A DNA stretch of 46,987 bases from a virus, in the IMG/VR virus record IMGVR_UViG_3300017788_000041, positions 1 through 46,987 of that record. One strand, 5' to 3'. A program made the position numbers and the translations under genes. Every line of letters begins with the position of its first letter. Position 1 is the first letter of the stretch. Shown piece by piece: positions 1,094-43,106 of this stretch. A model generated the notes under the pieces. It had not been told where the DNA came from. It did not search any database and saw nothing but the letters and a program-made list of their open reading frames with translations.

Positions 1094-3073
1094 TTATCTG
1101 GACGATTCGTAGCATCGATGTAATTCCTCCCAGAGAGAAGAGAGAGCTTTCGGAACGTGCTTTTTAAATTGCATGTAATCTTTATCTTCTAAGGTCTTCA
1201 TCACTTCCCTTGAAATCACCCATTCTGGCGAGGTTTGAATTTGAAAATCTTGGGGTAATTTCTTTCTCTTTTTCAAGGTACGGCTTTGTACCAAATAATT
1301 GTCTAGCTTTTTAGACCCCACAGTCAAGCTTTTGGGATTGCATTTATTTTTGATCTTTTCAATGGAAGTAGAAAGAAGATTGTCAGGAACATAATTTACT
1401 GAATGAATTAGATCAGACATTTCACCAGAAATTATCTTCATCATTTTATCCATTATTTCCCTGTTAATAAAGCTTTTTGAATTATTAACTACCATCAAAG
1501 CAACTGGATTTCCATTTACCTGATTTGCTTTCTTGATCATTTTAAGATGGCCGTTATTAAATGGCTGGAATTTACCAATAATTATATTTACATCCTGAGC
1601 ATCAGGATCAATAGCAGGATCCGAAATAGGATCAGTTTGTCCTAAAGCAGCTTGCATCTTAAAAGCAATTTCTGGATCTATTTCTTTTACCACAATCTCT
1701 TCGGAATCTTCTTTAGGCTCCTCTTCAATATCTTCGGGTTCTTCCTGTGGCTCCTCTATCGGCTTTTCTATGATTTCATCCTCCGGATCTTCAATCACAT
1801 CTTCCTCATCATCCTCTTGCTCTTCATCAGGAACGAAAGATCTTTTAACTTTCCTAAACTCATCAAATGTTGGGATTAAGGATTCAACTACTGCAGGATT
1901 TCTGTTAAGATAGTCTGAGATTTCTCTGACTAATAAATTAAATTGCTCTATAACTCCAGTGGTAAAGAATCCGCCAGATTTCTTTTTAATCTTTCTAAAG
2001 GCTGATAAGATTAGTTTGAAAAGGGATGCATAGCTTTCGTCCTGAGAAACCAATTCTTTAGTTTGATCGTTATTGATTAAATCCAAATTAGACTCAAACC
2101 CGTCTTGCTTTAAAAATTCAGGTTCTTGAAAATCTAGCCCTAAATATTTTTCCCCATTATCTTCTATGAATGAATTAAAAACTGACGAGATGAAAGAAAT
2201 GTATCGGTCTTGTGGATCGTCCCCAGTAAATTCAAAGCTCTCTATTCCTTTATCTAAAATATAGTTCATTACTTCTAGAAGAGTTATTCCGTAGATGTCG
2301 CTTGGGAAATAGCTGGCTTTTTTAACGTTGTTCTGTCTGGTGATATCTTCGAAAACCGGATCTATAATTTTTGCAGAAAAAGATTCTCCGGTTCCACTAA
2401 TTGGTCCAAATCTGAAAACTACTCCTTCGATGGGCTGATCTAAATCGTCATTAAGTAATGTCTTATCTAAATCAGGATTTAAAGTTTTTACTAGATACTT
2501 AGCAAAACTTTGGGTTCCGTGAGAGGATTTTAAACTATCAAATGGGGAGTTAACAAAATCATTAATGGAAGCTTTTTGCTGGTCCGATAATTTTCCCTGA
2601 AAAATAATTGGAGATCTTTCAATATCTAATAGGTCCGCCCAATAATCTAATTCTTCCTTTTCCACAATAGTTCTTTCAACATCTCCATATTGATTTTTAA
2701 CAATGATGTGAGTTAGGACCAAACCGTTTTTAGGAACCCTATTATACGACAATAAAACCGGACCTTCATTTATAAAAAATTCGGTACCGAATCTCCAACC
2801 CGGAGGGATTTCATTTTTTGTGAGATCCGGTAATCCTTGAACATATGTGATGGGTCCATCATAATAGTTCATCAGAACTCTATCAATTTTAGAAATGGGA
2901 TTAACTTGATCTCTTTTATAAAAGAACATAGTTCCGTCTCCTATGCTTTTCTCGAAAGAGAAAGACATACCATTTAATTTTTCAGAAACGGTAACTTCAT
3001 CTCCAAATAAATTGTCAATGAATTCTGCTCCTTGCTTCTTATAAACTTCACTTAGTTGTTTAATCCCTGCCAT
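1094..3073 (-). CDS. Fusion of an ATP-dependent RNA/DNA-ligase-like adenylyltransferase domain with an NMN-adenylyltransferase-like domain
   Basis: 659 residues in three parts. The N-terminal part looks like a covalent nucleotidyltransferase of the polynucleotide ligase superfamily: motif I EKLNG with the candidate adenylated Lys32, motif III-like FGTEFF at 95-100, motif IV EGVVFRF at 216-222, and motif V-like KIIDP at 235-239. Residues 415-465 form an extremely acidic Glu/Asp/Pro linker. The C-terminal part (about 495-659) starts with GKFQPFNNGH at 500-509, the HxGH-type signature of NMNAT/cytidylyltransferase nucleotidyltransferases. A late VISREVMK segment sits where NadM-type enzymes carry their ISxTxxR motif. 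The ligase half may be an RNA ligase; the second half may make NAD or a related dinucleotide. It starts three bases after the 142-residue gene. Motif assignments are by eye; substrates are not known. Confidence 0.65.
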   Translation of the reverse strand: MAGIKQLSEVYKKQGAEFIDNLFGDEVTVSEKLNGMSFSFEKSIGDGTMFFYKRDQVNPISKIDRVLMNYYDGPITYVQGLPDLTKNEIPPGWRFGTEFFINEGPVLLSYNRVPKNGLVLTHIIVKNQYGDVERTIVEKEELDYWADLLDIERSPIIFQGKLSDQQKASINDFVNSPFDSLKSSHGTQSFAKYLVKTLNPDLDKTLLNDDLDQPIEGVVFRFGPISGTGESFSAKIIDPVFEDITRQNNVKKASYFPSDIYGITLLEVMNYILDKGIESFEFTGDDPQDRYISFISSVFNSFIEDNGEKYLGLDFQEPEFLKQDGFESNLDLINNDQTKELVSQDESYASLFKLILSAFRKIKKKSGGFFTTGVIEQFNLLVREISDYLNRNPAVVESLIPTFDEFRKVKRSFVPDEEQEDDEEDVIEDPEDEIIEKPIEEPQEEPEDIEEEPKEDSEEIVVKEIDPEIAFKMQAALGQTDPISDPAIDPDAQDVNIIIGKFQPFNNGHLKMIKKANQVNGNPVALMVVNNSKSFINREIMDKMMKIISGEMSDLIHSVNYVPDNLLSTSIEKIKNKCNPKSLTVGSKKLDNYLVQSRTLKKRKKLPQDFQIQTSPEWVISREVMKTLEDKDYMQFKKHVPKALSSLWEELHRCYESSR

Positions 3074-29830: not shown

Positions 29831-32800
29831 TTAAATTATTTGTGGTCTAGTTACCTTTTCATAAATAGCTCTCTTTCTGAAGATGTCGCTGTTTACCAGA
29901 TCCACGATTTCACCAGGAGGAGGATTTTTATGATCTATAACCCTAATGTATCCTTTCTTATTGTGGATATAAACGTTTCCATTGGAATCTTCTATCTTAG
30001 CATGTAGAGTATAGAAACCTGGTTGATTAAATGTCCAGATGAAAGCATGCGTGTCTTTCACCTCTATAAGATTTTCGTTATCGTCATCGTTTATTAAGGT
30101 ATAGACTATATTTTTCTGCCCAGGGATTAAAGAATCTATTGGATTGAAAATAACTGTTGTTCCTATAGGAACTTCAAATTCTTTATTTGAAATTTTTCTA
30201 TCTCCTGCTGTCCAAGATCCAGATCCAAACCAAGAATATACTCCACCTATTTTCTTTCCTGTTCTATATTTCAGATTTGTAATTTTTCCTATAAAAGCAT
30301 CTTCCCCTCCACTTGGTGATGTAATCCAGTTTGAGAACTGGGATTCTCCCGAGACATATCCAGTTAAATAGATATTATCTTCCTTATCCAATGAAAGTGA
30401 TATACCTTCGTCCCTGTTTATACCTCCAGCATCAACTATATCAAGTAGGGTTCCGTGGTGATCATATTTAAATAAAATAATATCGCTGTCTCCCTCGGGA
30501 GAAGGATAATATATCGGTGATGAAAATTCGGGTGATACTATTAGCGGACCATCATAGGATCCCAGTATATAAATATTACCATCAGAATCTATTTCCACGT
30601 CTTGACAATAATCAGCATATATAGATCCTACTGATTTCGCCCAAAGATTTCTGTGTCCGTTAAACTTCATGATTGCTATATCTTTATTCCCGTTGGAAGA
30701 TATAACCTTACCATCAACTTCTAAGAATCCTGAAAATGTAGCGCCTAAAGCAATTTCTCCATTTCCAGAAACTTTAATTCTTGGGAAAACATGATAACTA
30801 GAATGTCCAACGTTTTTGTACGATCTAGTCCATCCCAAATTAAAATCATAGCTAATAAATTTAGAAAGAATTAAATTTTGTGCGGATCCAATTCTAGAAC
30901 TATATGAAAGATAAAGATCCTCATAATCCTTTCCTATTACGATAGAAGGATTTTCTTCTGTTCCTCCACTATTAGCTTTATACAGCCATTTAACATTTCC
31001 ATCTCCTTCTATTCTAGCTATGAAAACTTCAGGATCCAATCCTGCACTAGTTATTGAAAAAGATCCAGAGGATAGCGTTCCACTAAAAGTTCCAGCAACA
31101 TAAACGTTTCCTACTAAATCTATTGCAAGATCTTTTATTAAATCTCTAGCAGTATCACTGGAAGGAGAAAATAAATTGGTTCCGCTTACAAAAACTGCAT
31201 TCCAATTCCACTTTAAATAAATGTTTGTCGGAAGCTCTGAAGTTGTGTTGTTTCTATTTTTTTCTCTATATCCAACAACAATAACATTTCCCATTCTATC
31301 AACCTTGATCCCAGTTGGAGTAAAATCATAATCTGCAAATCCACTAAAGCTTCCGTCTCCGTATTTTCTTGCCCATTGAACAACACCAAATTGATTGTAC
31401 TTAGCAACAAATATAGATTTACAGCTATTAGATATAAGTGTAGTATTTGCAACTATTGGCAAATTATTTTTAGATCCAAAGCTGATTGTTCCACTAAAAA
31501 ATCCAGTAACATAAATATAACCATCCTCATCAACATGGGTTCTTATTCCTCTGTCGTCTTGCGTGTCTCCTATTTTAATAACCCATTCAAATCTATCCAG
31601 GAGGTTTCCAATATCTCTAGCAGAGCTTCTAATTACATTACTGTTTCTCCAGTATGATTCTTTCAATGCAGCTCCTGAAGAAATATCTCTCAGCGGAGCG
31701 TCCAAGAATAAATCATCTATATCAATTCCAGGATGTGAATTTGTTACGTCTTTAAAATCATAATTAATCCAGCTAGGAATTTTCCACGACTTACTATCGA
31801 CATAAGGGAGTTGAGGTTCCTTACCGATATTTATAGAAGCAGTGTATAAAGGACCAACAATAAAGTTGAAGTTAATTTCAGTTTCTCCAATTCCCTTTTC
31901 TCTCACATAGATAGGATCAGGAACTGGTCTATATGAAAGGTGATAAATGAAATCCCATCCTGAAATTCCTGGTGTTTTAGCAGAAGCATGAATGTAAGGA
32001 ATGACAAATGAGATTTTTCTTACGTAAATGTTTTGAGGATTTGGATAGGATCCAACACTTGGTTGATCCCAATAGTTAACATTAACATAGGGAGTACCGA
32101 TTCTTGGTTCGTCCCCTAAATAGAACAGATCCCCAACATTCCTAGTGAAATTTCCATCAATATATTTGACATTATTCCTAAAGAAATAAATATCCTCGTA
32201 ATCATAATCTAAATTATAGCTAGGCCCAAACGTATCTACTGTTCCTGGATCGTCCGTATAAACAACAAAGCTTATACCATTAAAGTAAACTAACTCATAT
32301 ATCTCTGTTCCGGTTTGTACTATAAAGAATATTCTTCCGCTTCCTAAACTAACTATGTTTCTGCTTTTTCCTAAAGGTAATTCAGGATTGGTAGTAGGTG
32401 TCCAACATCCCCATCTTATATTATCATAATAGCAAATTCCACTAGAGCTTCCTATCCATTTTCCACCAACCTCGTCTATTTCTAAAGAATAAAGATCATT
32501 AGCATGTAATCCGCTGTTAGTGGTATCTAAACTATCAATTTTTATTCCATTGTAAGTTTTTAAACCATTGTTAGTAACCATCCAAAGTTTAGACTTCTTA
32601 CCAATATATTCATATTTTAGCTGTCTAATACTATAAAGAGTGGTATCAATTATTCCAATACTTTCTTGAGGAATCAATTCCCAGTATCCTAATGTTGTTT
32701 CTGGGTTTTGTGAAACGTTGCTACCTTGCAAAGATTTATAAGATAATCCATTCTTACTAACTATACTTCCTATATCATATGTTTTCATGCTAGTCCAAGC

Positions 32801-35800
32801 TGGACCAAGTGTAGAAAGAATGTTGAATTCTTTAGAAGAAGCATTGAATTCTATAAGTCTATAAACATCCTCGTAAACTCCAACTGTATATCCTTGTCTG
32901 TATTTAACATACATGACAAAGTTTTCAGTTAAATTATCAACATCCAAACAAATAATTTGGAATTGTGAATCGGGAACGGGTGCTAAATAATTAAGATCTG
33001 GTCTAGAAAAACCAGAAATTGCAACAGAGCTAACTAATATGGTTCCTTCTGGGTTTTGTCTATGATAAACAACAAGTGGTATAGAGCATCTTTCCCCGTA
33101 GCACCACCAATTTCCATATTCATCTGGTAACACCTTTCTTGGAACAGATCCGGGATATTCGGTTCCTATATAATAGTAATCTATGTCAGTGGGTGACTTC
33201 ATTACTTTAACAGAGATAACACCCCCCATTATAATATCGCCATTCCTGTCTTGCTTTATAGATAGAGGAGCACCCATTGCAGGAGATCCTACTTGTAAAT
33301 CGTAAGATGATGTTTCCTCTTTATATGGTCTGGATATGCAGGTAAGTCCAGGAGATATAACGTCCCCAGTATTCTTAAAATATTCCGGAAGTTTTGAAAA
33401 CCCTCTAACCTCATAATAGAATCTTGAAATGTTAGGGTCAGTTGAAGCATTTAATTGATCAGCAGCTTCTCTTAAATCTAGATAGTTAGGGCTTGCATCA
33501 GGAGAGGAGACATTTCCTAAAATTATACCTCTAGAATTTTGGCTCACCCTCACTTTGTCCCCACTTTGTAAATTGTAAAGGGAGAATCCACCCAACCAAT
33601 CATTATGAAAATCATACATACCCCAAGTTTGGGAATATAAATTGTTCCAAGAAAGTGCGTCGAACGAATCCCAATTCAGAGTCTTAGTCCCGTAATATCT
33701 GGTGTTTTCTGTCGGAAGGTCACCATCAAAGTTATAGTCAACATAATCGGAATAGGAATTTACTCCTCCGGAAAACTGTGTGGAATATGATTTTACTGCT
33801 GAGCTTCCATCATAAAGATAAAGTCCACCTGTTGTAATAAATTCTAAAGATTTACCATTGTATAATCCCCCACTTCCTATTGGGCTTTTGAAAACAACGT
33901 CCCTCCATTCCTGTACATTAGTTGTGAAAATTGCAGAAGTTGTTATGGTATCAATTCCAAAGGCAGGGTCTTTTGTGAACCCATTGAATTTACTCATTAA
34001 ATTACCTAGTGTTGTATCTAATCTTCCATTAAAAGAAACGGTATGATAATCAGATCCTTGGTATTTCACCGTAATATTTCCAGATTTAACTACACTTATT
34101 AAAGAAGGAGTTACTGGATTAGCAAGTATAATCGGAAGGGTAAAACCGGTAGAGGTAACATTACTTATTAAGTATGTTCCTGATATATTTCCAGCACCAG
34201 TATTATACTCATCTATTATAGTTACTCTTTCACCGTTTGTGAAAGAATGTGGAAGATACGATGAATTTAAAGTTGCAATAGCTGGACCAGATCCAGTTCC
34301 ACTATATGAACTAGTAAAGCTAGACATCGGTATTTTTTGAAGACCGAATCTAACCAAAGCAGAACCAAGTGTTTCCGGAAAGCTCTTTAAAATCTTACAC
34401 CTTTGACCCTCGTTAAATTGATTTCCATATTCAGCAGGATTTAAAACAAGATTAGATGGTCTAGGCTCCTCTGGTCTTTTTTCTACCGGGAAAATCCACA
34501 TGGATTCAAAATTATCCCAAGGTTGATTTGTTTGATCCCAGGTATAAACTTCCGCCTCTCTAAATCGAGAAACACTAAATAATTCAACCTCTCTTTTTTT
34601 AACTTCTAAACAGTTTTCATAGTGGGTAGAACATATGTCATTAAATCCATCCCAAACCCTACATTGAACAGAATATATCCCATCATAGGGTAACATAACA
34701 GGAAGCTTATAATAGTCCGTTATTTTACCTCTTAACTCATAATAGTAAGGTCTATCGTCTTTTTTAGTTATCTTCCATTCAACCTCATAAAATCCAGCAA
34801 ATCTGAGATTATCCCAAGAATAAAATCCATCCGGATTGAATGAATAGTCATAATATGATAAATCTAGTCTGTCTTTAAAAATATTTACGATCTCAACTTT
34901 CCATTCATCAAATATTCCTTCATTCTTTGTCCAAAGAAGTTTAACATTTGCTACCCCAGTAAGAGTGCTGTATGATTGAACCTCGCAAAGAAACTGACAA
35001 TCAGAATCTAAATTGGAAGTAAACTTAAGTTGAACCTTACCTGAAGTTGGATTTAATATTGATATACCCGTTTGAAGGTTAATATTAAAAAGTGTTCCAA
35101 AGATAGTAGATAAATTAAATTCAAAAGATAAATTTGAATCTATTAAAGTTTGATCATTGTATCCAGTAACATCTGTGGTAGATGCTAGAGATGTAGAATA
35201 TGTTGAAATATTTCTATCAAGAGAATCCCATTGATTGTTTACTTCATCCCATGATAAATTAAAGGATGTTATCTCCATAGTGACAGGAAATCCTGCAGGA
35301 ACATTGTAAATTTTTCCATCATAGAGTTTTCTGTATCCTCCGTTTTTACTATCTCCGTCACCTAGTCTATATGGTTTTATTCCTTTGGTGTTTCTTTCAT
35401 CATAGAATAGCTTTATTGCATCAGCTAATCTTTTAGACTGTTTTCCTGGAAGTTTTAAGTTATCTTGCGGTATATCGACCAAATTACCGTAGGTTGAAAG
35501 ATTATATGTATTAGGTTCTGTACCAACATACGGGACGTATGGTATATCAGTATTTGGTCTTATTGAAAAAGGTCTTAAATCTTCTATGTAGCCATATTCA
35601 GGAGTGAATCCTAGCTCTAAATCAATTCCTTGATCCAGTTCATCAATTTTTAGATTGTCAGTCCAAGCTCTTGTTTTATAGATACCAAAATAAACACCCT
35701 CACCGGTAATGTCAATGATTCTTGCATTTAGTGGAAGGTAATCTTTTTTTAGTTTTTCTTTTAATCCAAATAATTTAATAAGAACTTCTTCCGGAGAAAA

Positions 35801-37360
35801 CACAAAAGCATTTTCCACAACAGGATATTCGTAGACATCCTCCTCATTTTCAACAATTCTATTAATATCATAGAATAATCCAAATAAAGCTGTTTTTTTA
35901 AAGCTAGAGGATGGAAATAATTTTTCCATCGAGGATTTCAATCCAAAGGTTCCGTCGCTTCTTTTTCCGTAAATTTCTATCTGTTTATACTTTTCAGAAT
36001 TTTCGTCATCGATTATACTCGCAATTAAATTTTGCTGGCCGTTTGGTGTGCTATTCCATTTTTCTAAAAAGTCAGTATTTTGTTTAAGTGCAGAGGTTTC
36101 AGATTCAGATTTTTTAATGTTTAGCCAATATTCTTTTATTCTTAAATCTTGATATCCAAAAAACTTAATAGCATTAACGAGTCCTTTATAAGAACCTAAA
36201 TATGAGTATATTTCATGCCCCTCTAATAAAAGTTCTTTTCTTTTATCGTTTAAAATTTCATAATCGGTAAAAGGTTCTTTGGGATCCGAATCTCTTAAAA
36301 TGTAAGCATCTTCCGCGTTTAATCTTCTTCCAAAATTATTTAGAATTGTTTTATATCTTTCATCTTCTCCAACAGTCTCACCGTGTATTTCTATTCTTGC
36401 TACAGTTTTTGGATATCCAAGGGAAAGATCTTCTATTACTAAAGTTCTTCCAAATACTCCTTCTTCTGTGGAATTTAGGGCTATGTTAACAGAAATACTA
36501 CCAGAATATATTTCTCCGGATGTTCTTAAATAATCGTTTACGGTTTCATTTGGATCATAATCTATCTTTAGGTAATTCGTGCTGATTGATTTTAAAACAG
36601 GAGCATCTAGAGTGCTATCCTCAGTAAGAATATATTGATATATGTAAGAAGAAACTTCGTTTCTTTCCTCTACAGGATACACAAAAACTGTACTATCAGT
36701 TAGGGTAACCTCACATTTTTTATTTAAGTAAATTTTATTACCTGATACCTTTGTAATTCTAGCATCTTTAGGGATTCCATCCCCTAATATCATCAAAAAT
36801 TCATCGTTATCTAAAATGCTACTTATATCAGAAGCAGCTGTTATATAATCTAAACCCTTGGTTATATTTGCTTTAAATGGATCAAAAGCGTCAAAATCTA
36901 AAACGTTTCTGGTTGTTTCAAAACTAACTCTCCAAAGATTGAAAAACAAGGGAGATAAATCTTCGGAGTAAATAGCTGCATTTTCAAGTTCTATTGTTTT
37001 ATCTTCGATATTAACTGCTGTTACCAAATTACCATTCGGAAACTGTTGACAGAAGATTTTAGAACCTATAAAATCTAAAACCGGCTGATTATTTACTATT
37101 ACCTTTTTAGATCCAGATTTAAAAGATCCATAAATTCCAGAAGCAGAAGTTGAACTTAAGTTAGGAGTAATGTGTGGATATCCGTAAGCAGTGTTACCGT
37201 TTAAATCTTCAAATTTTTCAACAATAAAAAGATGCTCTATCTCAAAAAGATCCACAGAAACTTGTGGGAGCATGATTCTAGTTTCCCAGAATTCACCATT
37301 CCATACAAAATTAGATTGATGTCCTGTTTTATTGAAGAATAAAAGATTTTTGTAATTCAT
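29831..37360 (-). CDS. Giant multi-module baseplate/tail protein (gpI/gp7-like N-terminal part, propellers, PKD)
   Basis: 2509 residues. Around 370-415 a helix-rich segment (EGHEIYSYLGSYKGLVNAIK, FFGYQDLRIKEYW) matches the wedge-arm pattern of P2 gpI / T4 gp7-type proteins. At about 1520-1560 a CBM5/12-like segment occurs (AWTSMKTYDIGSIVSKNGLS ... YWELI). At 1590-1650 there are regulator-propeller-type repeats (GLKTYNGIKI, LYSLEIDEVGGKWIGSSSGI). Residues about 1920-2360 contain seven SBBP-type repeats (for example DEDGYIYVTGFFSGTISF and DLVGNVYVAGTFSGTLSS), enough for a closed seven-bladed propeller. A PKD-like domain lies at about 2400-2480. It starts within the stop of the preceding small gene (TAATG). 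Position after gp25 and gp6 supports a wedge component extended by receptor-binding modules. Confidence 0.75.
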   Translation of the reverse strand: MNYKNLLFFNKTGHQSNFVWNGEFWETRIMLPQVSVDLFEIEHLFIVEKFEDLNGNTAYGYPHITPNLSSTSASGIYGSFKSGSKKVIVNNQPVLDFIGSKIFCQQFPNGNLVTAVNIEDKTIELENAAIYSEDLSPLFFNLWRVSFETTRNVLDFDAFDPFKANITKGLDYITAASDISSILDNDEFLMILGDGIPKDARITKVSGNKIYLNKKCEVTLTDSTVFVYPVEERNEVSSYIYQYILTEDSTLDAPVLKSISTNYLKIDYDPNETVNDYLRTSGEIYSGSISVNIALNSTEEGVFGRTLVIEDLSLGYPKTVARIEIHGETVGEDERYKTILNNFGRRLNAEDAYILRDSDPKEPFTDYEILNDKRKELLLEGHEIYSYLGSYKGLVNAIKFFGYQDLRIKEYWLNIKKSESETSALKQNTDFLEKWNSTPNGQQNLIASIIDDENSEKYKQIEIYGKRSDGTFGLKSSMEKLFPSSSFKKTALFGLFYDINRIVENEEDVYEYPVVENAFVFSPEEVLIKLFGLKEKLKKDYLPLNARIIDITGEGVYFGIYKTRAWTDNLKIDELDQGIDLELGFTPEYGYIEDLRPFSIRPNTDIPYVPYVGTEPNTYNLSTYGNLVDIPQDNLKLPGKQSKRLADAIKLFYDERNTKGIKPYRLGDGDSKNGGYRKLYDGKIYNVPAGFPVTMEITSFNLSWDEVNNQWDSLDRNISTYSTSLASTTDVTGYNDQTLIDSNLSFEFNLSTIFGTLFNINLQTGISILNPTSGKVQLKFTSNLDSDCQFLCEVQSYSTLTGVANVKLLWTKNEGIFDEWKVEIVNIFKDRLDLSYYDYSFNPDGFYSWDNLRFAGFYEVEWKITKKDDRPYYYELRGKITDYYKLPVMLPYDGIYSVQCRVWDGFNDICSTHYENCLEVKKREVELFSVSRFREAEVYTWDQTNQPWDNFESMWIFPVEKRPEEPRPSNLVLNPAEYGNQFNEGQRCKILKSFPETLGSALVRFGLQKIPMSSFTSSYSGTGSGPAIATLNSSYLPHSFTNGERVTIIDEYNTGAGNISGTYLISNVTSTGFTLPIILANPVTPSLISVVKSGNITVKYQGSDYHTVSFNGRLDTTLGNLMSKFNGFTKDPAFGIDTITTSAIFTTNVQEWRDVVFKSPIGSGGLYNGKSLEFITTGGLYLYDGSSAVKSYSTQFSGGVNSYSDYVDYNFDGDLPTENTRYYGTKTLNWDSFDALSWNNLYSQTWGMYDFHNDWLGGFSLYNLQSGDKVRVSQNSRGIILGNVSSPDASPNYLDLREAADQLNASTDPNISRFYYEVRGFSKLPEYFKNTGDVISPGLTCISRPYKEETSSYDLQVGSPAMGAPLSIKQDRNGDIIMGGVISVKVMKSPTDIDYYYIGTEYPGSVPRKVLPDEYGNWWCYGERCSIPLVVYHRQNPEGTILVSSVAISGFSRPDLNYLAPVPDSQFQIICLDVDNLTENFVMYVKYRQGYTVGVYEDVYRLIEFNASSKEFNILSTLGPAWTSMKTYDIGSIVSKNGLSYKSLQGSNVSQNPETTLGYWELIPQESIGIIDTTLYSIRQLKYEYIGKKSKLWMVTNNGLKTYNGIKIDSLDTTNSGLHANDLYSLEIDEVGGKWIGSSSGICYYDNIRWGCWTPTTNPELPLGKSRNIVSLGSGRIFFIVQTGTEIYELVYFNGISFVVYTDDPGTVDTFGPSYNLDYDYEDIYFFRNNVKYIDGNFTRNVGDLFYLGDEPRIGTPYVNVNYWDQPSVGSYPNPQNIYVRKISFVIPYIHASAKTPGISGWDFIYHLSYRPVPDPIYVREKGIGETEINFNFIVGPLYTASINIGKEPQLPYVDSKSWKIPSWINYDFKDVTNSHPGIDIDDLFLDAPLRDISSGAALKESYWRNSNVIRSSARDIGNLLDRFEWVIKIGDTQDDRGIRTHVDEDGYIYVTGFFSGTISFGSKNNLPIVANTTLISNSCKSIFVAKYNQFGVVQWARKYGDGSFSGFADYDFTPTGIKVDRMGNVIVVGYREKNRNNTTSELPTNIYLKWNWNAVFVSGTNLFSPSSDTARDLIKDLAIDLVGNVYVAGTFSGTLSSGSFSITSAGLDPEVFIARIEGDGNVKWLYKANSGGTEENPSIVIGKDYEDLYLSYSSRIGSAQNLILSKFISYDFNLGWTRSYKNVGHSSYHVFPRIKVSGNGEIALGATFSGFLEVDGKVISSNGNKDIAIMKFNGHRNLWAKSVGSIYADYCQDVEIDSDGNIYILGSYDGPLIVSPEFSSPIYYPSPEGDSDIILFKYDHHGTLLDIVDAGGINRDEGISLSLDKEDNIYLTGYVSGESQFSNWITSPSGGEDAFIGKITNLKYRTGKKIGGVYSWFGSGSWTAGDRKISNKEFEVPIGTTVIFNPIDSLIPGQKNIVYTLINDDDNENLIEVKDTHAFIWTFNQPGFYTLHAKIEDSNGNVYIHNKKGYIRVIDHKNPPPGEIVDLVNSDIFRKRAIYEKVTRPQII

Positions 37361-37614
37361 TACCTAACGTACTTATTATTTTTAGGAACTCTATAGTTAA
37401 CAAAATTTCTAATTCCTTTAGTAGTCTCTATTAATCTATGAATTACTCTCTCTATCGAAGACATTATACTTTTTCTATTTTTGTCTCCACCTAAAGTTAT
37501 GGAAGACATAGTTTTTTCAAAGATCTGTCCCTCATAATTGAATCCAACATTTGATCTGTTGTCTCTTGTTGAGTTTATATAATCGTAATAGCTTTTTCTC
37601 TCCGTATTAAACAT
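37360..37614 (-). CDS. Small basic protein in the baseplate block, unidentified
   Basis: 84 residues, rich in Arg, Asn, Ser and Tyr (TERKSYYDYINSTRDNRSN, HRLIETTKGIRNFVNYRVPK); no family recognised. It sits one base from the gp6-like stop-side neighbour and its TAA overlaps the ATG of the 2509-residue gene (TAATG), so translation of the giant protein is probably coupled to it. A small wedge-assembly or adaptor protein is plausible by location. Homology to a T4 wedge protein could not be seen. Confidence 0.6.
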   Translation of the reverse strand: MFNTERKSYYDYINSTRDNRSNVGFNYEGQIFEKTMSSITLGGDKNRKSIMSSIERVIHRLIETTKGIRNFVNYRVPKNNKYVR

Positions 37615-37615
37615 T

Positions 37616-39340
37616 TTAAGAGTTATTATTTCTTATGAATTGCTTGTTCTTCATATTTACCTCAGTGTTATAGGTAACGGGAACTGTTTTTCTAATATCT
37701 ATATTAATGGAAGAAAGCTTGTTTAAATCTGCTCCCTTATCATAGAATAAACCCGCTCTATCCGACCAACCCCCCGTAAGTATTACTATTTCATCCTTAT
37801 CGAAAAGGATGTCACCGAAATCGTCTAATCCCAAAACTATTTTTTTCTTAGGATCTGTATCAGGTAGTGATTCAACTCCCTTAGCATATATTTCATTTTT
37901 TTCAGAGACGAAAAATAAGGTAACAGAATCAACCCCGGAAACGGATTCAACTATAGAAATTAAGTCAGATCTTGGAATTTTATCTCTTCTTCGTATACTA
38001 ATAAAGTAATCGCTAATAGAATCAATGATTTGCCCTTTTATAGTATCAGGATCATATCCTTCAAAAACAGTTATGAGTATATTTAAAACATACCTTGAAA
38101 TTTTAGGATCTAGTATTTTTACCTCTGTGGTAACAATTTTTTGCCCGCTGTCTTCAATTGCTTGCAAAAGCCTTGTCTTTTGAAATTCTGTTAATTTAAA
38201 TTCAGTTTCTGCAATATCAAAATATGTTTCGTTGGTTTTTAATTTTTGAGTTATATCAGGTACTAAAAGAACATAGATAATATTATCATCATCTAAATAT
38301 TGATCATCAAAAGTCGAAAAAGCTTCTATAATAGAAAATATTCCAAATTTTTCAAAATATGTTATGTAATTATCAGGATTGGCAAGTACAAAAGATCTTG
38401 AAGTTTTTGGAGCAAGAATTCTTGTGAGTTCTATAGACTCCTTATCTGTTCCTAGCTGAGGAGAAACTGTGCAATTTATTTTAAGATATTCCTGAAGGGA
38501 AACAGAATTACCAAAAGCGTCTGTTCCATCATCGCTAAACTCAAATACAATTTTTCCTGGCTCTAAAGAACTGATATTTCCCCCAGCACCTAAGGTCTCC
38601 AGATACTGTACTTGAATGGTAGAACCTACAGGAGGAATCTTTCCAAAATTTTTATTGCCAAAAATAACGTCAATCCCACTGCTTATTCCAGTTTTAACTA
38701 AAACACCCTCCGAATTAAAAGGAATATCATATAATGAATCATAAACCTTCCATTCATCACTATCTACAAAAACTTTAACTTCAAAGTTGTCTATAGCTGA
38801 AGTAATTCTATCCGATACGTTATAACTTTGTAAAGGTCTTCCATTTCCGGTAAATGAAGATGTTTTGATACTTCCCTCCAGAATTTCGCAAGAAACCTTA
38901 GAAGACGAATTTAAATTGATTCTAGTATATTCCTGAGGAAAATTTAAAACGTAAGAAACCCCGCCGTTAGAAAATTTAATTTGAGCATATCTAGGAATTA
39001 ATATTGCTCCCCCACCCACTGTTGTAGCATCCGTTCCATTCCATATAATTTCCACTTGTCCTCTTGCAGCAGTGCTTCTAGTAGCATTGTGACCTGCTAA
39101 AGCTGCAAGACCATATATTGAGCTTTCCCTACTAGCCTTTCTGATGTCTAGCTCAGTAATAGAATCCTCAATAAAATAAAGAATTAGCTGAGAAAGATTC
39201 TGAAGAACAAATAATATCTGCCCCCATGCAGAAGCTACTGTAAATAGTTGATTGGCTTGATTATATCTTTTCTGGATGATCTCAAGTGTGTCTTGTAGAA
39301 GATCCTGAATTTTAGCCCGATTTTTTTTGAATAAATCCAT
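37616..39340 (-). CDS. 6: Baseplate wedge protein, T4 gp6 / P2 gpJ (baseplate_J) type
   Basis: 574 residues (T4 gp6 has 660). The N-terminal half follows the gp6/J plan: helices with LFVLQNLSQLILYFIEDS, then RKASRESSIYGLAALAGHNA (the GY/GH turn after the first helices), a strand with RGQVEIIWNGTDATTVGGGA and the IPRYAQIKFSNGGVSYV segment, the equivalent of T4 IPRGTRFLA. DVIFGNKNFGKIPPVGSTIQVQYLETLGAGGNI matches T4 FYFGEGE ... IVIEYISTNGADANG. The C-terminal part carries the typical ferredoxin-like region (VLNILITVFEGYDPDTIKGQ). Wedge proteins of this family join six wedges into the ring around the hub. The neighbours gp25 upstream (one-base gap) and the giant protein downstream are in the order expected. 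Confidence 0.85.
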   Translation of the reverse strand: MDLFKKNRAKIQDLLQDTLEIIQKRYNQANQLFTVASAWGQILFVLQNLSQLILYFIEDSITELDIRKASRESSIYGLAALAGHNATRSTAARGQVEIIWNGTDATTVGGGAILIPRYAQIKFSNGGVSYVLNFPQEYTRINLNSSSKVSCEILEGSIKTSSFTGNGRPLQSYNVSDRITSAIDNFEVKVFVDSDEWKVYDSLYDIPFNSEGVLVKTGISSGIDVIFGNKNFGKIPPVGSTIQVQYLETLGAGGNISSLEPGKIVFEFSDDGTDAFGNSVSLQEYLKINCTVSPQLGTDKESIELTRILAPKTSRSFVLANPDNYITYFEKFGIFSIIEAFSTFDDQYLDDDNIIYVLLVPDITQKLKTNETYFDIAETEFKLTEFQKTRLLQAIEDSGQKIVTTEVKILDPKISRYVLNILITVFEGYDPDTIKGQIIDSISDYFISIRRRDKIPRSDLISIVESVSGVDSVTLFFVSEKNEIYAKGVESLPDTDPKKKIVLGLDDFGDILFDKDEIVILTGGWSDRAGLFYDKGADLNKLSSINIDIRKTVPVTYNTEVNMKNKQFIRNNNS

Positions 39341-39341
39341 T

Positions 39342-39713
39342 TTAAATTACCTTTATTCCCAATACAGGATTACCCTTGATAGCAAATTCGATTACGCAGC
39401 TATCTCTAGTATCACCCCTGAAAAAGCCCACCTGAAAATCAATTTTAAGTATTCCCCTAGCGAAAGGACAGTAGGTATAAAGCTGCAAGCTTATAGCTTC
39501 CTCTAATTCTTGCTGGTTAACTTCAAAATCGAAAATCAAAGATTCTAGATCTATACCAAAGAAAGGGTCTCCTAAAACAGATCCAGGTTTAGTCAACATG
39601 ATCTGTTTTATCATCCCTATAGAGGATTCCACAATATCATCAGTCTCTAGTTTGTCTGGGACGTATAGTGGATCATCAGGATTCCTAGGGTATATGTCAG
39701 TAATCTTTATCAT
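39342..39713 (-). CDS. 25: Baseplate wedge protein, gp25 type
   Basis: 123 residues, as usual for the gp25 / P2 gpW / IraD-like family (T4: 132). Characteristic segment: MLTKPGSVLGDPFFGIDLES, LIFD, equivalent to T4 TTRKGSRPFDPEFGCDLSDQLFE. The ELEEAISLQLYTYCPFARGI region corresponds to the conserved helix and R/P turn, followed by two C-terminal strands. gp25 nucleates the wedge-hub contact in contractile tails and similar injection machines. A one-base gap separates it from the gp6-like gene. The 48-base leader has a TATAAATA box, an exact T4 late-promoter core. Confidence 0.88.
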   Translation of the reverse strand: MIKITDIYPRNPDDPLYVPDKLETDDIVESSIGMIKQIMLTKPGSVLGDPFFGIDLESLIFDFEVNQQELEEAISLQLYTYCPFARGILKIDFQVGFFRGDTRDSCVIEFAIKGNPVLGIKVI

Positions 39714-39761: not shown

Positions 39762-40535
39762 TTAATTCCACTGTAAGAAATAGCTTGGGGTGTTTTCTGA
39801 TTTAATCATATCCATTACCTCGGTCTTTTCTGCGGTGCCCTGAGCTGAAATAGCACTAGCGTTTATGGTAACACCACCAGGTAATTGATATCCAAACGTT
39901 CCTAAAAGCCTTCCTATGTTAATTTTAGCCTCTGCCAGGCAATACCTAACAAAAAGCTCATCAGAATATAAGTTTTCTTCAGGAATGGCAATACATGCCT
40001 TAATTCCTACATCCTTACCGCCTAGAGCTAGACCTGTGCTGGATGTTCGACTAGGATCGCGTCCTAGGATGGTTAGCTTCTTCGTATTCTTGTTATAATT
40101 GAAAGCATAGGTTTCTAATAGGTATGCTTTCGCAAGGTCAAAAAATGAGTATAAAACTGTTCTATAGACAAGGTTGTCACCTATGAAAGGACTTAACATA
40201 AGCTCAGATCCAAGAAGCTTAGAATCACCAAAATCTCTATCCGGGGTTCCAACTATTCCAGATCCCCCAACCTCTCTAACATCATATACACTTATCACAC
40301 ATTCGGGAAGTTGAACTTGTCTTGTTGCTCTAAAAGTAGGGTGTGAAAATAGCTCCTTACCTAGGATAAAAATACGATCCTCGATAGCATATTGATAGTT
40401 ATCATAAAAATATGCCTTAGCTCTTTTTATAATTCTCTTAATTTCTCCGTCATTCAGAGCATAAGGTAAAGCACAAGAGTGAGAGATATCATCTTTTATT
40501 TCTTGCACTAATTGATCTTCCGTAGTATTAGCCAT
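39762..40535 (-). CDS. Probable virion protein, possibly neck/connector (unidentified)
   Basis: 257 residues. The N-terminal 60 residues are helical and charged (IKRIIKRAKAYFYDNYQYAI, EDRIFILGKEL), followed by strands including TRQVQLPECVISVYDVREVGG and a helical DLAKAYLLETYAFNYNKNTK segment. The C-terminus is rich in small residues (GGVTINASAISAQGTAEKTE). The alternation of helix-rich N-terminus and LP-V-SVxxV strand is reminiscent of neck or connector proteins of marine T4-like phages (gp13/gp14 size range), but I cannot align it to a T4 protein. The ATG overlaps the amidoligase stop codon as TAATG, so both are translated together; the 48-base gap after it separates it from gp25. Confidence 0.5.
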   Translation of the reverse strand: MANTTEDQLVQEIKDDISHSCALPYALNDGEIKRIIKRAKAYFYDNYQYAIEDRIFILGKELFSHPTFRATRQVQLPECVISVYDVREVGGSGIVGTPDRDFGDSKLLGSELMLSPFIGDNLVYRTVLYSFFDLAKAYLLETYAFNYNKNTKKLTILGRDPSRTSSTGLALGGKDVGIKACIAIPEENLYSDELFVRYCLAEAKINIGRLLGTFGYQLPGGVTINASAISAQGTAEKTEVMDMIKSENTPSYFLQWN

Positions 40536-41995
40536 TATTGATCGTTATTTTTATACAATCTATTTATCGAAATAGAAGGAAGAGAATTATTCATATCATT
40601 AAAATCCTCACTTGGACCAACTTGTCCTTCAACGTTACGGTCAGGGAATACAACATTTTTTAAGAATTTTTCTCCCTTTCCTTTTCCTTTACTCTTACCG
40701 TCAGCATCATTATTTATGATTTCGGTAGAAGAAGAAATTTGAGCAAGAGAAGTGATATATCCGGATCTAATTATACCTCCGGTGATTTCACAGCTTATTT
40801 CTTTATCCTTAGCATCTATGTAAGAATTATTAACGGTGTTTCCTAGACCTAAATCACAATCCAGAATCTTAGAATCTTCTATCTCGTTATTCATTACTAA
40901 ATCTGTGTCCTCTATCTGGCAATTTTTAAATTTGCATCCAAATGCTCTACATTTAGCAATATTTCCTTCGATCTCACATTCTACAAGATCTAAATTCTTA
41001 ATTATATTAGCTCTTGTGGTTTTTCCGTCTTTTAATTGATATCTTGATATTTGTGTGTCATAATTTAAAAAACCAGAAGTAATCTCATTTTCCACTATTA
41101 AATTATAAAGAATGTCTCTAATATCGTGAAAATATGTTTTAATAATTTGTAAATCCTCTCTTAAATCAACAGTTACATGTAGATCTGGATAATTTCTAAC
41201 AAATGTCTCCGGATCGATAAAGCTCTCTGTTTCCTTATATAGTTTAGAAATAAGTGAACTTAAATCTGATGTTTCTTTTTGATTTAAAGTATCGTTTTGT
41301 AAAAGTGTTTTAAATGTGTGATTTATAGTGTGATCTATAATTTCTTTTATCTCCGTGTATTTCTTTTGGTAGTCTGTTCCACCCATATATCTTACCTCAA
41401 TGTAACCCTCCTCTAATTTGGTTAAATTAATTCCCATATTTTTCTCGGTGTACACGACGTAAGAATTTCTATCTGCAATAGTTCCGTCATATTTTCTAAT
41501 AAACTTATTAGCAGGAATTATTCTTTTTATAGATTTAGCATAAAGTGATCCTCTTCTTTCGGGAAATCTGTTCCACACATACTCCTCGTCATATCCCAGA
41601 ACGAATTTTAAAGCATTTAGATTTCTAAGATCTATTAGTTCAGGGTATTTAAGTCTATCAAAACTTAATCCAAATTGTAAGGCGCATTTGTCATTCGTAT
41701 ATCCGTTTTCGTCTATCCATTTAAGGATTCTAATTAAAACTGGAATTGCCTCAAAATAATCCATTGGGCCAGTAATTAGCTCTACCATTTTGGTACCGCC
41801 GGAAAAATCTGGCTCTAGCTTAAAAACATCCCTAGTTGGCTTAAATCTGGAGTGGTATCTCTTGAAAAGCTTAATTTCTTTTCCAATTTCGTTGCCTATT
41901 CTTTCCACCATCTCCGAACGCGAAAAATTGGACATGAACTCAAATTCAAATCCAATTTTTGCTGCGTAAAAGAAATTTTGATCAAGTATTCTCAA
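40535..41995 (-). CDS. Amidoligase-like (COOH-NH2 ligase) enzyme fused to a pentapeptide/beta-helix-like C-terminus
   Basis: 486 residues. The N-terminal 210 residues follow the putative amidoligase family (Amidoligase_2, glutamine-synthetase-like fold): GFEFEF with Glu17/Glu19 (metal-binding E-x-E), KLEPDFSGGTKMVELITGP with Asp63 and Glu72, a helix IPVLIRILKWIDENGY, CALQFGLSFD at 104-113 and the late IEVRYMGGTDY with Glu200/Arg202. The usual His of the cGxHvH strand is missing (ALQFGLSF). Residues about 330-420 consist of short repeats with alternating Cys/Asn/Asp (NLDLVECEIEGNIAKCRAFG, CKFKNCQIEDTDL) resembling pentapeptide or beta-helix repeats. A Lys/Gly patch (GKSKGKGKGEKF) follows. The start is TTG at 41995: an in-frame TAA lies four codons upstream and the first ATG would cut off the E-x-E motif. 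The family ligates amines to carboxyl groups in peptides. Confidence 0.65.
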   Translation of the reverse strand: MRILDQNFFYAAKIGFEFEFMSNFSRSEMVERIGNEIGKEIKLFKRYHSRFKPTRDVFKLEPDFSGGTKMVELITGPMDYFEAIPVLIRILKWIDENGYTNDKCALQFGLSFDRLKYPELIDLRNLNALKFVLGYDEEYVWNRFPERRGSLYAKSIKRIIPANKFIRKYDGTIADRNSYVVYTEKNMGINLTKLEEGYIEVRYMGGTDYQKKYTEIKEIIDHTINHTFKTLLQNDTLNQKETSDLSSLISKLYKETESFIDPETFVRNYPDLHVTVDLREDLQIIKTYFHDIRDILYNLIVENEITSGFLNYDTQISRYQLKDGKTTRANIIKNLDLVECEIEGNIAKCRAFGCKFKNCQIEDTDLVMNNEIEDSKILDCDLGLGNTVNNSYIDAKDKEISCEITGGIIRSGYITSLAQISSSTEIINNDADGKSKGKGKGEKFLKNVVFPDRNVEGQVGPSEDFNDMNNSLPSISINRLYKNNDQ

Positions 41996-43106
41996 TTTTC
42001 TGTTTTAGATATAATTTAGAACTTTGTAGCTCAACATCTAAAACAGTACAGAGAATTTCGGAACCGACTTCGTACTCTTTAGGTGGCTTTGCTAAATTGT
42101 CCTTTTCCACCAGTCCCGGGATCCCATTTTCGAGTTTTACAAAAACCCCAAAATTCTTGATCTTAGAGACGGTTCCTCTATATATTTTATTTTCTTTATC
42201 TTCTGATAAAGATATGTCCCTTAATTCCTGAAGTTCCCTATCTTTACCCTCAGGTGGGTTTAATTTTAAAACTATTCTGTTTGGATTTCTAAAATCTGAG
42301 ACATAGAACGAAACTGAACTTCCTGGATCCATATTCATTTTTAGACCGGCAGACTCAAATTCTTCTGCTGGAATTAGGCCAGTGTAGTATTCGTCCCATT
42401 CAACAAAAACACCTGCAGGAGAAGTCCCAGTAACGGTTCCACTATATTGCTGTGTTATTGAAAGATTCTCTACTTTTTGATCTATGATGTGCTTCAGATA
42501 CTTTTTGAAAGAAACTACAAAAATGTCCCTTCTTTCATCGTATGTCTCAACCATCACATTAATGGTTTTTCCTACAAAAGACTGGAAATCGATGATTCTA
42601 TTTGCAGCTGCAAGAGATCCAGGTAAGAAACACTTGATTCCTGAAAGATTAACCATAAATCCTCCAGGACATGTCGATTCAATTCTTACAGTATATGCAC
42701 TCTTCTCGTCTTTAATAGATTTAGAAAGTTCATTCTTAAGAGAATTTTCATATCCTGCAGCAAGAGATCCATTATAAATCCCACTGCGATCTTTAAACAC
42801 CACAACATCAATTTCGGTTCCTTCCATAATAGCCATAGGGGGATAGCCTAATCTTCTGATTGCTTTCTCTTCCTTAAGAATATCAATGGAAACTGATTGC
42901 CCATTTACGGATTCACCAATTGCGCTGTTTTCTCGGATACGTGTTATCTTTACTCTTAAAACCTGATTTTCTTCAAGTTCTTTTGATGTGAATGGAATTG
43001 ATTTTTGTGTGAAATTTGAATTGAAATGACCTTCATACAAAGCATCCATTATTGCTCTTTCCTCTGGAGAATATTCCTCTCTAGTATAGGTTCTTTTCTT
43101 AGCCAT
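41982..43106 (-). CDS. S1-repeat RNA-binding protein (ribosomal protein S1-like)
   Basis: 374 residues with three clear S1 (OB-fold) repeats and one degenerate one. A weak repeat lies near 45-125 (LRVKITRIRENSAIGESVNG). The second is at about 135-207 (YTVRIESTCPGGFMVNLSGI, KCFLPGSLA). The third is at about 218-286 (QYSGTVTGTSPAGVFVEWDE, YYTGLIPAEEF). The fourth and most typical is at about 305-370 (YRGTVSKIKNFGVFVKLENG, IPGLVE). Bacterial S1 binds mRNA leaders on the small ribosomal subunit; a phage version could promote viral mRNA translation or control host ribosomes, or protect RNA. The gene lies between the large right-edge gene (22-base gap) and the amidoligase gene (14-base overlap), in an otherwise structural block. 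Confidence 0.85.
   Translation of the reverse strand: MAKKRTYTREEYSPEERAIMDALYEGHFNSNFTQKSIPFTSKELEENQVLRVKITRIRENSAIGESVNGQSVSIDILKEEKAIRRLGYPPMAIMEGTEIDVVVFKDRSGIYNGSLAAGYENSLKNELSKSIKDEKSAYTVRIESTCPGGFMVNLSGIKCFLPGSLAAANRIIDFQSFVGKTINVMVETYDERRDIFVVSFKKYLKHIIDQKVENLSITQQYSGTVTGTSPAGVFVEWDEYYTGLIPAEEFESAGLKMNMDPGSSVSFYVSDFRNPNRIVLKLNPPEGKDRELQELRDISLSEDKENKIYRGTVSKIKNFGVFVKLENGIPGLVEKDNLAKPPKEYEVGSEILCTVLDVELQSSKLYLKQKIENT

Follow-up and report, generated by a model that had tools for sequence, protein, structure and literature searches.

The gene at positions 40535 to 41995 (minus strand) of the viral DNA analysed here encodes a 486 aa protein in which a glutamine synthetase (GS)-like, Amidoligase_2 domain is joined to a short beta-helix tail. 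Within a lineage of jumbo phages it counts among the core genes of the tail operon. A histidine characteristic of amidoligases has been replaced by glutamine in the large clade to which this phage belongs and, as judged from the sequences, this replacement is old and fixed and represents a maintained switch. We give roughly even odds (a probability of about 0.5) to the reading that the protein is a specialised, catalytically competent amidoligase, acting late with partner enzymes of the AsnB and RimK types. The source is IMG/VR record IMGVR_UViG_3300017788_000041, a virus fragment of 46,987 bases examined over its whole length and called the window below.

The open reading frame starts with a TTG at 41995 and terminates in a TAA which ends at 40535. 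It overlaps by 14 nt at its 5′ end with the gene of an S1-domain (RNA-binding type) protein (41982–43106, minus; Pfam S1, 5.6e-20) and its 3′ junction with the next gene is a TAATG overlap. The gene therefore looks translationally coupled on both sides. The upstream protein contains three S1 domains; its gene is a conserved member of the tail operon and adjoins the amidoligase gene in most relatives, T4-like ones among them. Directly downstream lies the gene for an Ad2-type head-tail adaptor-like protein (39762–40535, minus; phrog_211, 1.4e-6). It is followed by genes for a gp25-like baseplate wedge protein (39342–39713, minus), whose phrog_261 match is weak (0.0051) and whose place in the gene order is conserved, and for a gp6-like baseplate wedge protein of the baseplate J type (37616–39340, minus; phrog_219, 6.6e-30). 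A small protein of conserved position (37360–37614, minus) separates the latter from a giant tail protein of 2509 aa (29831–37360, minus), which contains SBBP beta-propeller repeats (Pfam SBBP, 5.4e-8) and also has a weak CBM_5_12 match. An earlier note on this DNA had placed the enzyme beside gp25 in a baseplate operon; the tail/baseplate setting is correct and the immediate neighbour is the Ad2-like gene, the gp25-like and gp6-like genes coming after it. At the other end of the window, the product of 1094–3073 shows a weak N-terminal match to RNA ligase and a weak C-terminal match to cytidylyltransferase-like/NMNAT domains, both below the Pfam cut-offs.

The assignment to the amidoligases, which the earlier note had based on E-x-E, D/E and late E-x-R motifs, stands up to profile and structural comparison. 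PF12224 found no match when the full-length protein and the whole window genome were searched. The excised domain (residues 8–306) scores 19.8 bits (E=8e-4) against a curated cut-off of 22 bits, and 45 of 49 family members match the profile (best 4e-10), two of them above the cut-off: a member from a Bacteroidota MAG (L091, 39.1 bits) and one from a 482-kb phage contig (L162, 23.0 bits). Aligned with hhalign to three phage and bacterial amidoligases together with the homologue from phage Atu_ph07, the family reaches a probability of 98 (E=3e-13), and of 89 (E=2.2e-6) if Atu_ph07 is omitted. In this alignment E17/E19, D63 and E72 fall on amidoligase motif positions, Q107 lies opposite the amidoligase His, and E200-x-R202 matches the E-x-R motif. 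E17, E19, E72, E200 and R202 are found where the note had put them. AlphaFold2 models the protein with a pLDDT of 82.7 overall and 92.0 in the domain, and the fold predicted is GS-like and not an unrelated one: glutamine synthetases came first in two Foldseek searches of the PDB (E 5.6e-6 and 6.4e-6, probability 1.00) and a search of BFVD returned named phage amidoligases among its matches. The TM-scores against solved GS structures are low, none exceeding 0.40, and the window domain is thus a remote GS relative whose pocket geometry is deduced from the order of its motifs. Taken together, profiles and model support a glutamine-synthetase-like, Amidoligase_2 fold.

Other searches gave little. 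Nothing useful came from a PDB search by sequence profile, and PHROGs gave no named family for the window protein; other members fell into the unnamed phrog_33777 and once into phrog_2443, 'amidoligase'. Matches to DUF3737 and HEPN were weak, confined to single members and rejected as chance. True glutamine synthetase (PF00120) was rejected as the family of the gene. It is absent from 17 of 18 contigs and occurs as one separate gene in LR756501; nine 'moraphages' are reported to carry a true glutamine synthetase as an AMG (PMC12619734).

The protein is composed of four regions. The GS-like amidoligase domain covers residues 8–215 (41351–41974, minus) and carries the pocket residues E17 (codon 41945–41947), E19 (41939–41941), D63 (41807–41809), E72 (41780–41782), Q107 (41675–41677), E200 (41396–41398) and R202 (41390–41392), all on the minus strand. 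A helical linker is predicted for residues 216–306 (41078–41350, minus). Residues 307–427 (40715–41077, minus) are predicted to form the short beta-helix or pentapeptide-like tail which had also been proposed at the outset. The model has a run of short strands here (308–414, pLDDT >90) with some resemblance to pentapeptide repeats: Pentapeptide_4 matches 11 of 27 family members, the window protein itself giving no match in this search, and Foldseek matches the tail weakly to MfpA, QnrB and AlbG. The C-terminus (residues 428–486; 40538–40714, minus) is disordered (pLDDT <40 from residue 431) and Lys/Gly-rich. It includes a KGKGKG sequence, and the stretch K434–K443 is conserved among close relatives; this end of the protein is a possible self-modification or binding site.

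The residues of the predicted pocket are strongly conserved. In 76 diverse homologues E17, E19, S65, E72, K185, N190, E200 and R202 are invariant and D63 is present in 75. At position 107, on the G-x-H strand, 36 of these have His and 40 have Gln, and no other residue occurs there; the His is present in the bacterial and phage amidoligases examined. Among 39 Gln-type sequences (mean identity 55%, lowest 36%), the ligase domain has 47 invariant columns out of 206, the linker 6 out of 91 and the beta-helix 9 out of 121, which makes the pocket the most constrained part of the protein. The window protein has 20 near relatives, and comparison with those that are 96–97% identical gives a dN/dS of 0.015–0.019. 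Parsimony needs three His/Gln changes on the tree, and one clade of all Gln forms is compatible with the data (p-AU 0.37); one Gln form, L090, is sister to the His-type L162 and may represent an independent change. The earlier note had observed that the His is missing and had suggested that activity might have been lost. The first point is correct. The second, in its simple form, is not sustained: since only His or Gln occurs at position 107, the other pocket residues are invariant and dN/dS is about 0.02, the change is a fixed replacement rather than decay, and simple decay of the enzyme was rejected on the all-or-none His/Gln pattern and the invariant pocket.

The gene is also a regular member of the operon. 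The downstream Ad2-like protein was used as bait in a viral sequence collection, and 73 of the 80 loci recovered include the amidoligase gene, nearly always directly upstream of the Ad2-like gene. Of the seven others several are cut short, and two (L168 and L169) have about 5.9 kb of upstream sequence. The order S1, amidoligase, Ad2-like, gp25-like, gp6-like is common to the His and Gln types. Homologues extend to phages of 462–735 kb; in these the gene is either close to Ad2/gp25 or at another place. In the present lineage the tail operon has the amidoligase gene as a core member. Relatives of the gp6-like protein are mostly from Bacteroidota phages, Lak included; 'moraphages' are freshwater phages with Bacteroidota hosts (PMC12619734), and the phages of the window lineage may belong to or near this group.

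These properties bring in the main rival explanation, that the protein is a structural pseudo-enzyme: the GS-like fold and the beta-helix would together form a tail or neck assembly component, in which the Gln form is non-catalytic and the pocket residues serve folding or the binding of a fixed ligand. The gene's constant place, flanked by neck-like and by baseplate genes and overlapping both neighbours in translation, its presence in nearly all relatives and the replacement of the catalytic His in the window lineage would all fit such a role. Phage structural proteins often contain beta-helix domains, which counts in the same direction. However, the acidic pocket residues and the E-x-R motif are invariant down to 36% identity, conservation peaks at the pocket and not at the tail, half of the family keeps the His in the same operon position and, as described below, the Gln form is strictly linked to an intact AsnB-like enzyme. 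We regard this explanation as possible though somewhat doubtful.

Two further enzyme genes accompany the Gln type. One encodes an AsnB-like amidotransferase (PF00733 plus a GATase domain) in which the N-terminal MCGI, with its Cys, and the SGGLDSS loop are intact; an example, with both the Cys and the PP-loop motifs, is at L187:7501-8916 (plus). It is encoded at the same place in both Gln-type clades, with gp23, the gene of the major capsid protein, about 7 kb away. Taking the presence of gp23 as proof that the region had been sampled, the AsnB-like gene was found in 12/12 Gln-type and 0/4 His-type contigs (Fisher p 0.0005, not corrected for descent, the association being confounded by shared descent with few independent His/Gln changes). 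The reverse test, with the AsnB-like protein as bait, yielded 28 contigs. The amidoligase is present in 26, all 26 of the Gln type with every pocket residue intact, and the two others are fragments of 61–67 kb.

The second gene encodes a RimK-like ATP-grasp ligase which scores above the TIGR00768 cut-off and has a C-terminal RimB/retropepsin-like domain, as in L187:8914-10377 (minus; contig IMGVR_UViG_3300008110_010000) and in L190:8304-9764, the fused domain being of the RimB/RloA3 retropepsin-like kind in both. The fusion carries an LDTGNGA motif and its PF05618 domain matches are sub-threshold; it could be a polyglutamate writer and eraser combined in one phage protein. The RimK-like gene occurs in nine of the 12 Gln-type contigs which hold gp23. 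In one search it was present in each of the eight Gln-type contigs measuring at least 217 kb and in one of six His-type records longer than 400 kb. Both partner genes lie 16–95 kb from the amidoligase gene, with no shared operon. The window record, at 47 kb, is too short to include them, and a near relative (L002, 219 kb, with a 96% identical protein) carries both. As the His-type relatives are without AsnB-like and mostly without RimK-like partners, the partners are not needed by the whole family.

For a catalytically competent amidoligase, analogy with GS suggests that ATP and metal ions would be bound in a pocket formed by E17/E19, D63/E72 and E200/R202, and that a carboxylate would be activated as an acyl phosphate and then joined to an amine, as in the GS superfamily. 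Q107 takes the place of the His that normally completes the second metal site and would be expected to weaken or alter that site. Expression from the tail/baseplate operon makes late action most likely, and this position favours late action on virion proteins: their carboxylates would be the likeliest targets and host-envelope peptides the second likeliest. The beta-helix probably serves to anchor the enzyme on a partner or an assembly intermediate. The amidoligase, the AsnB-like protein and the RimK/RimB-like enzyme, which is of the polyglutamylation type, co-occur and may constitute a route of amide/peptide modification. One possibility is that the amidoligase makes the linkage while the other two extend, trim or amidate it. 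The fuller proposal, that a late three-enzyme amide/peptide tagging pathway modifies virion proteins while tail or head is built in a large jumbo-phage lineage, is tentative and, as a whole, rather doubtful.

Two other targets can be considered for the same enzymes. The first is host-envelope peptides, by analogy with cassettes of the phiEco32/LUZ24 type (PMC3890496, PMC5498523, PMC10580990). The three enzyme kinds, GS-like amidoligase, glutamine amidotransferase and ATP-grasp ligase, are common to LUZ24/UFV-P2 (PMC3890496) and the Gln-type jumbo phages, and PSA-HP1-type cassettes contain the same three (PMC5498523). An envelope target nevertheless appears unlikely: the known cassettes form one early cluster, whereas the genes are dispersed here in late structural blocks, no recognisable orthology links the AsnB-like protein and the amidoligase to LUZ24 gp19 and gp18, and no gamma-glutamyl cyclotransferase gene was noticed beside them. 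The second involves late translation, the enzyme acting with the S1-domain protein and the RimK/RimB-like fusion to modify ribosomal or phage S1-type proteins. This would account for the conserved S1-domain neighbour upstream and recalls that RimK modifies RpsF, with RimB as its retropepsin-like partner in Pseudomonas (PMC7343187, PMC11957791). We consider it highly improbable, the connection being one of gene adjacency; S1 domains have other roles too, and the S1 neighbour is kept in His-type relatives which are without RimK-like partners.

Phage amidoligases as such are already known (phiEco32, LUZ24-like phages and others), in early or accessory cassettes, and so is the trio of enzyme kinds. 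The phage amidoligases have so far been regarded as accessory enzymes that act on the cell wall or on metabolites. In the literature we found no description of a core tail-operon amidoligase with a beta-helix tail or of a fixed His-to-Gln switch and an AsnB-like/RimK-RimB-like link, and nothing relevant joining amidoligase and baseplate. The phages studied here have a core tail-operon amidoligase with an old active-site switch tied to two further amide/peptide-forming enzymes. Their co-carriage hints at chemical modification during particle assembly, and raises the question of whether, during assembly, jumbo phages make covalent changes to their particles or to the envelope of the host.

A structural relative is A0A6J5PQ40, an uncharacterised phage protein in BFVD which matches over the whole length, at TM-scores of 0.79/0.88 and 28% identity, and represents the same family including the tail. 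Among solved structures, glutamine synthetase and gamma-glutamylcysteine synthetase are the best matches and share the order of the metal/ATP motifs, at a TM-score of at most 0.40 and about 10% identity. The GS-like fold of the Amidoligase_2 proteins (LUZ24 gp18, Porphyromonas phage DBA55455 and Atu_ph07 AUZ94978) is also that of the window protein, and their order of motifs, E-x-E, D-x-S, E, G-x-H strand, N and E-x-R, is the order found in the window family. For Agrobacterium phage Atu_ph07 virion proteomics has been published (PMC6102473). Salicola phage SCTP-2 has two adjacent amidoligase-like proteins, gp125 and gp124 (L081:7924-11684), with no beta-helix tail seen in them. Unlike LUZ24 gp18, DBA55455 and AUZ94978, the window lineage has Gln in place of His, a beta-helix tail, a place in the tail operon and the status of a core gene. 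LUZ24 proteins were considered as orthologues and rejected, RimK alone matching (to gp21). The three enzyme kinds of the phiEco32/LUZ24-type cassette do co-occur in the Gln-type jumbo phages. There, however, the amidotransferase is of the AsnB type and the ATP-grasp enzyme of the RimK type with a RimB-like domain, and in contrast to the one-piece early cassette their genes are dispersed in structural regions of the genome.
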